This document shows, in pieces, positions 54,402-56,151 of a DNA stretch of 64,000 nt. The stretch comes from Cliona cf. orientalis. Lineage: Eukaryota > Porifera > Demospongiae > Clionaida > Clionaidae. The DNA is taken from positions 7,078,609-7,142,608 of the forward strand of contig OZ005700.1 in assembly GCA_963930775.1 (NCBI GenBank), given 5' to 3'. The translations under genes and the position numbers were made by a program. The notes under the pieces were generated by a model that did not search any database, was not told the DNA's origin, and saw nothing but the letters and a program-made list of their open reading frames with translations. Within the stretch, counting starts at the first letter, position 1. The number at the start of each line of letters is the position of its first letter.

Positions 54402-56151
54402 ATGTCCTCTCGTTCCTCAAGAAGACCACCAAACTCTTCTCTTTTCATAAGAGGACTCAACTTGTCAACCACGTAAGTATTTAAATTTTAATATAATTTA
54501 CCACACCCATAAATCTGTCTCATTTCAGTTCTGACGATTTGAGGGATCTGTTTGCTCGCTATGGACCTATCCAGGATGTGTACATTCCCATGGACTACTA
54601 CACACGAGAGCCTCGGGGCTTTGCCTATGTTCAATATCCTCATTCATGCAAAAACACCCGAAGGCTTGTGCTTCCCTGTAGGTGCAATATGTACGAAAAT
54701 GCATGACATTGTGCTCATCTCTAATTGAACCCCACCTCCTTTTCCATGCACCCCTACACAGTCTCTTTCATACCATATCACCTTATAGCTGGAAATTTTC
54801 AAGGAGTCCAGTATTCGTGATTGTTCGCCTGACCACAAGACTAAGATAATGCATGTCCATATAGGCCATGTTTCTGCAAGTACATATATACATACCAGAT
54901 CATCTGGGCCTGAGTCCCTCCCCCTGCCCATGGCAAATCTAATATGCTTCCTTTTTTAATCCTTTCCTGTGGCTACTCTTTTGTACTGCCTCTACAGTGC
55001 ATGTACTAATACTAATGCTTTTGACTCTGTACTGTTTGTTCATGTACACAGCACATCAAAATCACAAGCACAGTAAGATAAAGTAAAGTATGGTAAAAGC
55101 ACAAAGCAAGGCAAAGTTCATCTGTAAAGATACAAGCAAGCAAGATTGTAAGTAGCAACTTGAATGGCTTGCCTTGCCTGGTATATACAAGTTTCTTGTT
55201 CTTTCGTGCTATCGAAGATTTAAGTGCTTTCTTTATTATTGTGTGCATACTTCATAACAGCATAATGACATCGAAGTAAAGTAAAGGGCAAAGATCAAGG
55301 CAGAGTAAAGTAAAAAAAGCAAAGATATCAAGGCAGAAAGTATTCAGCAAAGATATCAAGTCAAGGCCAAAGCCCAAAAGCTTACGTAGGTATCTATCGG
55401 TTCAAGAGATCAAGTAAAGCTTCTAGGCTTTAGGCAGAAACACGTGACTATTATAATAATAGTGTAGTATAGACTCTATGCCGAGCTTAGTTTAGAAAGT
55501 TAGTTCGCAAGTTTCTTTAACGCAAATAGTACATTTGAGGATGTTCGAGACGCAGAGGATGCACTGCACTACCTGGACGGCACCCGACTCCATGGACGAG
55601 AGCTGGAGATACAGTATGCAGAGGGAGACAGAAAAAGTATGCTATGCTCTACCTACCATTGTATTATAAACCCACAACAATGACATTGTGTGTATGGTAT
55701 ATGTGTACGTGTAGCACCCCAGCAGATGAAGAGCAAGGAATATTCTAGAGGAAGTGGACCTCGCCATAATCGAGGGTGAGTGCTTTATGCATGCCGTTCT
55801 ACAGCAATAATATTATGCATTGTATACCTTCCACTAAATTTTCAGGCGCAGATACTCCAGGTCACCTGATTACCATAGAAAGCGATCTCGCTCCTATACT
55901 CGGTATGTTGCCAGATTATCGTTGGTGATGACTTTTATAATAAATTATTATTCGGAATAATATTATTTCTGATTTGCAGCTCTCGATCTCGTTCGTACAG
56001 TCCAAGAAGAGACAAGAGGGGCAAAGATCGAAGGTCACGTAGTCGATCCAGGTCCCGTTCCTATTCCAGATCACCTTCACGCTCGTATAGCCGGTCGTAT
56101 TCTAGGTCTCGCTCTATTTCTCCACGTCGGTCCCATTCTAGATCACCTTGA
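54402..56151 (+). CDS. SRSF10: SR splicing factor, SRSF10/SRSF12-like
   Basis: Six exons (54402-54472, 54529-54633, 55533-55636, 55715-55775, 55846-55902, 55980-56151) encode 189 aa. One RRM with RNP2 LFIRGL and RNP1 RGFAYVQF is followed by [22 protein letters not shown]-like [19 protein letters not shown], and an RS domain rich in RSRSYS. The block [16 protein letters not shown] is identical to human SRSF10. Joining exons 2 and 3 in the conserved frame requires the AT-AC intron at 54634-55532, which has U12-type signals. The protein binds pre-mRNA and regulates splice-site choice in the nucleus. SRSF10 and SRSF12 are vertebrate duplicates, so the symbol is approximate. Confidence 0.93.
54634..55532 (+). 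other. U12-type AT-AC intron in the SRSF10-like gene
   Basis: The 5' splice site is ATATCCTC (54634-54641), close to the minor-spliceosome consensus ATATCCTT. The intron ends AC at 55531-55532. TTTCTTTAAC (55512-55521), near the U12 branch consensus TTCCTTAAC, lies with its branch adenosine 12-13 nt from the end. Splicing here yields CA|A TTT, which restores the conserved YVQFED. No GT-AG pair gives this sequence. Confidence 0.88.
55060..55440 (+). repeat. Purine-rich AAAG/AAGGC degenerate repeats in the U12 intron
   Basis: Repeated words such as GTAAAGTAAAG, AAAGCAAGGCAAAG, AAAGATATCAAGGCA and AAGATATCAAG recur across about 380 bp. The pattern is irregular, not a clean tandem array. Confidence 0.65.

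Follow-up and report, generated by a model that had tools for sequence, protein, structure and literature searches.

Positions 54402-56151 (+) of the window, by which we mean the whole 64,000-nt stretch of Cliona cf. orientalis DNA that was analyzed, hold an intact gene of six coding exons that encodes a protein of 189 residues with one RRM followed by an RS-rich C-terminal part. Coding exon 1 (54402-54472, 71 nt) encodes the N-terminus and the start of the RRM and ends in phase 2, and coding exon 2 (54529-54633, 105 nt), reading SDDLRDLF...RGFAYVQ, stops two bases into the codon for Gln59. Coding exon 3 (55533-55636) ends in ...EGDRK and is followed by exon 4 (55715-55775, TPQQMKSKE...), exon 5 (55846-55902), in which the RS region starts, and exon 6 (55980-56151), which encodes the RS-rich C-terminus and closes with a TGA stop codon; all exons and introns are on the + strand. 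In a domain search with the whole protein, RRM_1 was matched in a single stretch at residues 14-83 (5.3e-21).

Four of the introns, as read from the sequence, are GT-AG introns of 56 nt (intron 1, 54473-54528), 78 nt (intron 3, 55637-55714), 70 nt (intron 4, 55776-55845), and 77 nt (intron 5, 55903-55979). Intron 2 (54634-55532), in contrast, has a length of 899 nt, begins with AT and ends with AC. No tandem repeats were listed in it at a score of 30. A transposon origin of intron 2 was considered and rejected, as a DNA search of the genome, which leaves simple repeats and very frequent words aside, returned only the intron itself and one 45-nt match on contig C10. Two open frames neighbor the gene upstream: a glyoxalase-family protein at 51757-53049 (+), matched in three stretches, and a leucine-rich-repeat protein at 53193-54275 (-), the first Met of which lies ~135 nt from the start of the SRSF10-like frame.

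Identity of the gene

Over 82 residues the RRM is identical to human SRSF10 at 55 positions, to human SRSF2 at 42, and to an SRSF2-like protein of the same genome (L009) at 37, where the human SRSF10 sequence is a provisional one and that of human SRSF2 contains one provisional residue. L009 has the opposite affinity, with 64/82 residues identical to SRSF2 vs. 32/82 to the provisional SRSF10 sequence. By BLASTP the new protein and the provisional human SRSF10 share 66/95 residues. The original prediction of an SRSF10-like gene is thus borne out, to the extent that the RRM is nearer to SRSF10 than to SRSF2, and we consider 54402-56151 to be SRSF10-like and the putative sponge orthologue of SRSF10, an assignment made by sequence identity rather than by a gene tree. 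When the N-terminal 102 residues were searched against the genome, 23 matches were obtained, three of which were the gene's own exons; the strongest of the others was L009 (2.3e-19, spanning residues 6-93). L009 is continuous over these residues and has no intron at the position of the AT-AC intron, and therefore, as far as this genome is concerned, the intron is a feature of the SRSF10-like gene and not of its nearest paralogue.

Splice signals of the AT-AC intron and alternative junctions

Exon 2 ends in ...GCCTATGTTCA at 54633 and the intron starts with ATATCCTCATTC at 54634; at its other end ...TTTCTTTAACGCAAATAGTAC at 55532 is followed by the exon 3 start ATTTGAGGATGTT. The intron is in phase 2 and interrupts the Gln59 codon within RNP1 (RGFAYVQF). 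U12-type introns have the branch consensus TTCCTTRAC, spaced 10-13 nt from the 3' end. In intron 2 the motif TTCTTTAAC at 55513-55521 has one mismatch to this consensus, at a base that could still form a G-U pair with the local U12, and its branch A (55520) lies 12 nt upstream of the final base of the intron, the AC 3' splice site being at 55531-55532. The 5' splice site ATATCCTCA (54634-54642) matches RTATCCTT at 7/8 positions, the departures of ATATCCTC from the consensus being at +8 (C) and +9 (A). Under a stricter rule, which in the available text of PMC2846911 allows a single T change at the +5/+6 C, the site misses at +8. These signals confirm the AT-AC intron at 54634-55532 that had been predicted with a branch site 12-13 nt upstream of its end, and on its sequence we regard it as very probably U12-type.

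Single motifs of this kind are common, as ATATCC occurs 30 times in the window over both strands. At the window rates of 2.35e-4 per position for ATATCC and 6.3e-5 for an AC lying 10-13 nt from a branch motif close to the consensus (a rate that counts the intron 2 site itself), the chance of both signals falling where they do is ~4e-8 for three offsets and 2.9e-8 for two.

All GT-AG, GC-AG, and AT-AC junctions leaving an open frame were enumerated between 54540-54759 and 55460-55599, giving 86 (18 GT-AG, 21 GC-AG, and 47 AT-AC), of which only 54634/55532 restores the string VQFEDV; the others were rejected on this ground. When any dinucleotides were permitted, VQFEDV was restored at three junctions, AT-AC 54634/55532, TA-CA 54635/55533, and AT-AT 54636/55534, none of them GT-AG, and the latter two were rejected because neither has a known splice-site form. 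The original prediction had also held the AT-AC junction to be the only way to rebuild the RRM, which stands for the exact VQFEDV string among GT-AG, GC-AG, and AT-AC junctions (1/86) but not more broadly, since in-frame alternatives with altered residues exist.

We weighed three such readings of the junction. That a GT-AG intron is removed instead, yielding a protein with a changed RRM, has 18 open junctions in the scanned ranges to draw on; however, none of the 18 restores VQFEDV, and of the examples 54629/55539 deletes the conserved VQFE and 54682/55529 adds 17 foreign residues in a place where the family is nearly invariant, so that we find this reading almost vanishingly improbable. The nearest miss pairs the AT at 54634 with an AG at 55529, giving VHTFEDV in frame, and AT-AG minor introns are known from the available literature; a minor intron of this subtype might thus be removed here, alone or as an alternative. 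Its AG, however, is 9 nt after the branch A, below the usual 10-13 nt, and its use would alter Gln59 and add a residue in RNP1, where the provisional human SRSF10 sequence has the identical string, which in our judgement makes the AT-AG form highly improbable. Lastly, the AT-AC intron could be taken out by the major spliceosome, as U2-type AT-AC introns are known, with SYCP2 and TAF2 named as examples in the available literature. Against this reading, which we judge extremely improbable, the 5' site has the U12 form, ATATCC, a U12-type branch site is present at the right distance, and the sequence before the 3' site is not pyrimidine-rich (pyrimidine fraction 0.53). The U12-type AT-AC intron at 54634-55532 is the reading that we carry forward.

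Minor spliceosome components in the genome

The original prediction had pointed to the snRNAs of the minor spliceosome as a check, and a search of the genome (216.8 Mb, 149 contigs) with Rfam models identified two copies of U12 (113.7 and 112.4 bits), one of U11 (95.4 bits), and two of U6atac (106.7 and 79.7 bits), whereas U4atac is represented by a candidate that scores 48 bits, below the Rfam cut-off of 53, and is absent from the gathering-threshold list. U12 retains the branch-binding GAGUAAGGAA (also GAGUAAGGAAAAUA) and U11 retains its AAAAGGG end. The U4atac candidate and the local U6atac are predicted to pair extensively (-39.6 kcal/mol, computed for the native sequences only). As judged by eye, U11, both U12 copies, the U4atac candidate, and both U6atac copies are preceded by a TATA-like box and by an element resembling AACC(C)ACA.

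Exons of CENATAC are also present, all three listed matches being over the cut-off and in order on one contig (C18), at model positions 1-148 of 330. Depletion of CENATAC in human cells is described, in the available text, as affecting 92% of A-type vs. 24% of G-type minor introns.

Both U6atac copies lie on contig C7 (L005:1501-1625 -, and L006:1501-1626 -) and differ from the Rfam consensus at position 14, which is C (UGAAACGAGAGAAGG) instead of G; the second copy is ~2.6 kb from the first and its 3' stem-loop was unmatched. The G14 of U6atac pairs with the +6 C of the minor 5' splice site. In this standard register C14 would stand opposite the +6 C of ATATCC as a C-C mismatch and the helix would thus be weakened. 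In a predicted duplex of the 5' site with the local U6atac the best pairing was in a shifted register that would use the +8 C.

A pattern scan of the genome for short AT-AC introns gave 30 matches vs. 29 in the reversed control, and the count itself therefore carries no signal. Six of the 30 loci were inspected, and at one of them, in a DCAF11-like gene, exon, intron, and exon follow one another cleanly. This candidate intron (C6:10367087-10367164, -) runs ATATCCTCT...TTTCCTTAAC and has C at +8 like the intron of the window; its joined exons match human DCAF11 (1.8e-5), the alignment having a gap of two residues close to the junction. Another of the six (L042), with full consensus signals, was not joined in frame.

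We consider it highly probable that the sponge orthologue of SRSF10 has a true U12-type AT-AC intron in its RRM and that this intron was inherited from early animals. The DNA displays the splice signals, an intact gene, snRNA genes and CENATAC exons in the same genome, and an intron position and phase shared with a published nematode SR gene (see below); splicing by the minor route in vivo is what we would expect. In such a scheme U11 would recognize ATATCC and U12 the branch site, U4atac/U6atac/U5 would join, CENATAC would favor the AT-AN class, and excision of the intron would yield GTT CA/A TTT (the slash marking the junction) and an uninterrupted RNP1.

Possible regulation through the intron

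If the intron is retained, the frame meets a TGA at 54704-54706 (+) and the product ends at 82 residues, inside the RRM. We infer from this that functional protein depends on minor-spliceosome activity; the intron would gate protein output, and SRSF10 output would follow the activity of that spliceosome.

Beyond such a gate, the original prediction had proposed that the control loop of mammalian SRSF10, a competition between minor and major splicing, is very old. According to the available text of PMC7244321 (Meinke et al. 2020), three elements are required for the loop in mammals: a major 5' splice site that competes with the minor one, an exon 3 rich in GA, and a poly(A) site. Were the full loop to be present in the sponge gene in addition to the minor intron, a downstream major 5' site in an extended exon 2 would join a cassette exon within the intron, for instance at 54998-55147 or 55052-55147, and a truncated message would result, a choice that SRSF10 would favor by binding AAAG-rich RNA. 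Intron 2 does contain a candidate acceptor (54997) and donor (55148), the best of major type within it, and 6/6 combinations tried give a stop. However, of 2000 random segments of 899 nt drawn from the window, 70% reached the scores of both sites together; the internal major-type sites of intron 2 are at chance level, and a cassette exon within it, tried as a candidate, was not supported above chance. Random inserts, moreover, would usually give a stop too. The donors that would extend exon 2 (54678, 54682, and 54691) are weak, 54678 scoring 0.5 and the other two falling outside the intron's ten best, as compared with 1.1-5.9 for the gene's own donors.

The other elements of the mammalian loop were sought within the 899 nt of intron 2. 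It contains neither AATAAA nor ATTAAA, but has 6 copies of the variant AGTAAA. The GA-rich motifs GAGA and GGAG, at one copy apiece, fall short of the average of 2000 random stretches and are not enriched. A competing major 5' site, an exon 3 with a GA-rich enhancer, and a poly(A) site are established in mammalian Srsf10 in the available text, whereas none is detectable above chance in the sponge.

AAAG, the strongest of five motifs counted in intron 2, is enriched, with 18 occurrences where 2000 random stretches average 4.3, and 0.35% of these reach that count; the CAAAG count was reached by 1.2%, while AAAGA was not unusual (9.6%). A purine-rich, AAAG-rich stretch at 55280-55420 (+) contains two copies of AGCAAAGATATCAAG(G/T)CA, and the purine content of 55270-55419 is at the 98.8th percentile. 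It is possible, judging from this composition, that 55280-55420 is a putative regulator-binding region. The two copies, at 55318-55335 and 55346-55363, are near-identical over 18 nt and lie inside the minor intron.

The length of intron 2 as compared with the 56-78 nt of the gene's other four introns, together with that of its Trichinella counterpart (2095 nt, see below), would suit the housing of a regulated exon, but length alone is insufficient for such a conclusion. On balance the presence of the full mammalian-type loop in the sponge gene appears doubtful to us, and the claim that the loop is very old is not established by these data, with major-type sites at chance level, AATAAA/ATTAAA absent, and GAGA/GGAG not enriched. 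A wider proposal, that minor/major competition setting the level of SRSF10 predates the split of sponges and vertebrates, with the AAAG-rich region as a self-limiting binding site, we regard as a little more doubtful still. The minor intron itself, and the gate that it would provide, are what we consider below.

Age of the intron and comparison with known systems

The original prediction had placed the gene in an early animal, and the mitochondrial contig of the assembly (C149, 19,633 bp) supports a non-bilaterian animal as host. It reads with code 4, the cox1 gene having 11 TGA as Trp, 24 ATA as Ile, and 8 AGA/AGG as Arg, the last in contexts such as DVDTRAYFT; the arginines at those AGA/AGG codons we take to be conserved. 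Bilaterian mitochondria read AGR, and often ATA, differently. The contig also encodes atp9 (PF00137, 1e-12), a gene whose presence in the mitochondrial DNA of an animal is indicative of a demosponge or a homoscleromorph. A sponge is therefore the host that fits best. We note that a second contig, C111, gave a cox1 match with the same score as C149.

Among the papers listed in a literature search, none dealt, as far as titles and abstracts tell, with a minor intron of SRSF10 in sponges. The main text of a pan-eukaryotic survey (PMC10639083), in the part available, does not contain "sponge," "Amphimedon," or "Porifera," while its supplements may list the intron.

A counterpart does exist in the nematode Trichinella spiralis, where an "SR (splicing factor)" gene (EST EX501652.1) has an EST-based AT-AC U12 intron of 2095 nt, the longest of 16 in the table of PMC2846911 as available. 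Its junction reads TAC ATA GA/ATATCCTTTC...TTTCCTTAACGGGTATGGTTTAC/G TTC GAA GAG CTG AAA GAT GCT, with Gln printed in the table where the codons read Glu. When the sponge GTT CA/A TTT GAG GAT GTT CGA GAC GCA is aligned with it, the intron falls in the same codon and the same phase. The available text of PMC2846911 does not itself give an SRSF10 orthology for this gene; we infer that it is SRSF10 from YIEFEELKDA. The orthologue named there is C. elegans EEED8.7, for which an intron of the major type, displaced by three amino acids, is reported. The Trichinella gene thus resembles the sponge gene in having a long intron of the AT-AC subtype in the same codon and in phase 2 before F-E, and differs in belonging to a nematode and in its 5' site, ATATCCTTTC.

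For the coding form of mammalian Srsf10, an AT-AC intron of the U12 type that starts in exon 2 is described (Meinke et al. 2020, PMC7244321), and the earlier claim that mammalian SRSF10 also has a minor-type intron is accordingly stated in print. The literature searched, including the available text of PMC7244321, did not give the codon at which the mammalian intron lies, and the identity of the intron among sponge, nematode, and mammal rests on two positions that were read and one class that was stated. The same codon and phase in Trichinella and an AT-AC minor intron in mammalian Srsf10 support an old intron, and the AT-AC intron is probably, on this sequence comparison, as old as animals.

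One could argue for separate origins of the intron in sponges, in nematodes, and in vertebrates, as Trichinella is a single case and the mammalian match is known by class and not by codon. However, subtype, codon, and phase are all alike in two distant animals, and A-type minor introns are described in the available literature as conserved in place among metazoans, which makes separate origins very unlikely in our view. The AT-AC intron of the sponge, inherited from early animals as we believe it to be, fits this described conservation.

Plant SCL genes are described in the available text of PMC3173450 as a close sister group of SRSF10 and its closest SR sub-family outside animals; the position and class of their introns were not found in the literature searched, as far as it was available. 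Within animals, a 27-species survey, in its available text, calls the SRSF10 sub-family conserved in bilaterian animals and does not contain the word "sponge"; a sponge can now be added to it.

The prospero twintron of Drosophila (PMC8329584, PMC3564746) is similar to the sponge case in being an AT-AC minor intron in a regulatory gene, and it differs in being described with a nested GT-AG intron. SRSF10 is absent from the 18 human twintron genes as tabled in the available text of PMC3564746. The closer parallel is mammalian Srsf10, in which, as in the sponge, an AT-AC U12-type intron starts in exon 2 and a stop codon is met when the minor 5' site is passed over (PMC7244321, in the text available). 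In mammals the output of SRSF10 is linked to minor-spliceosome activity and, in turn, to the abundance of other SR proteins. With an AT-AC intron in this position in a sponge, the gate itself would date to near the root of the animals.
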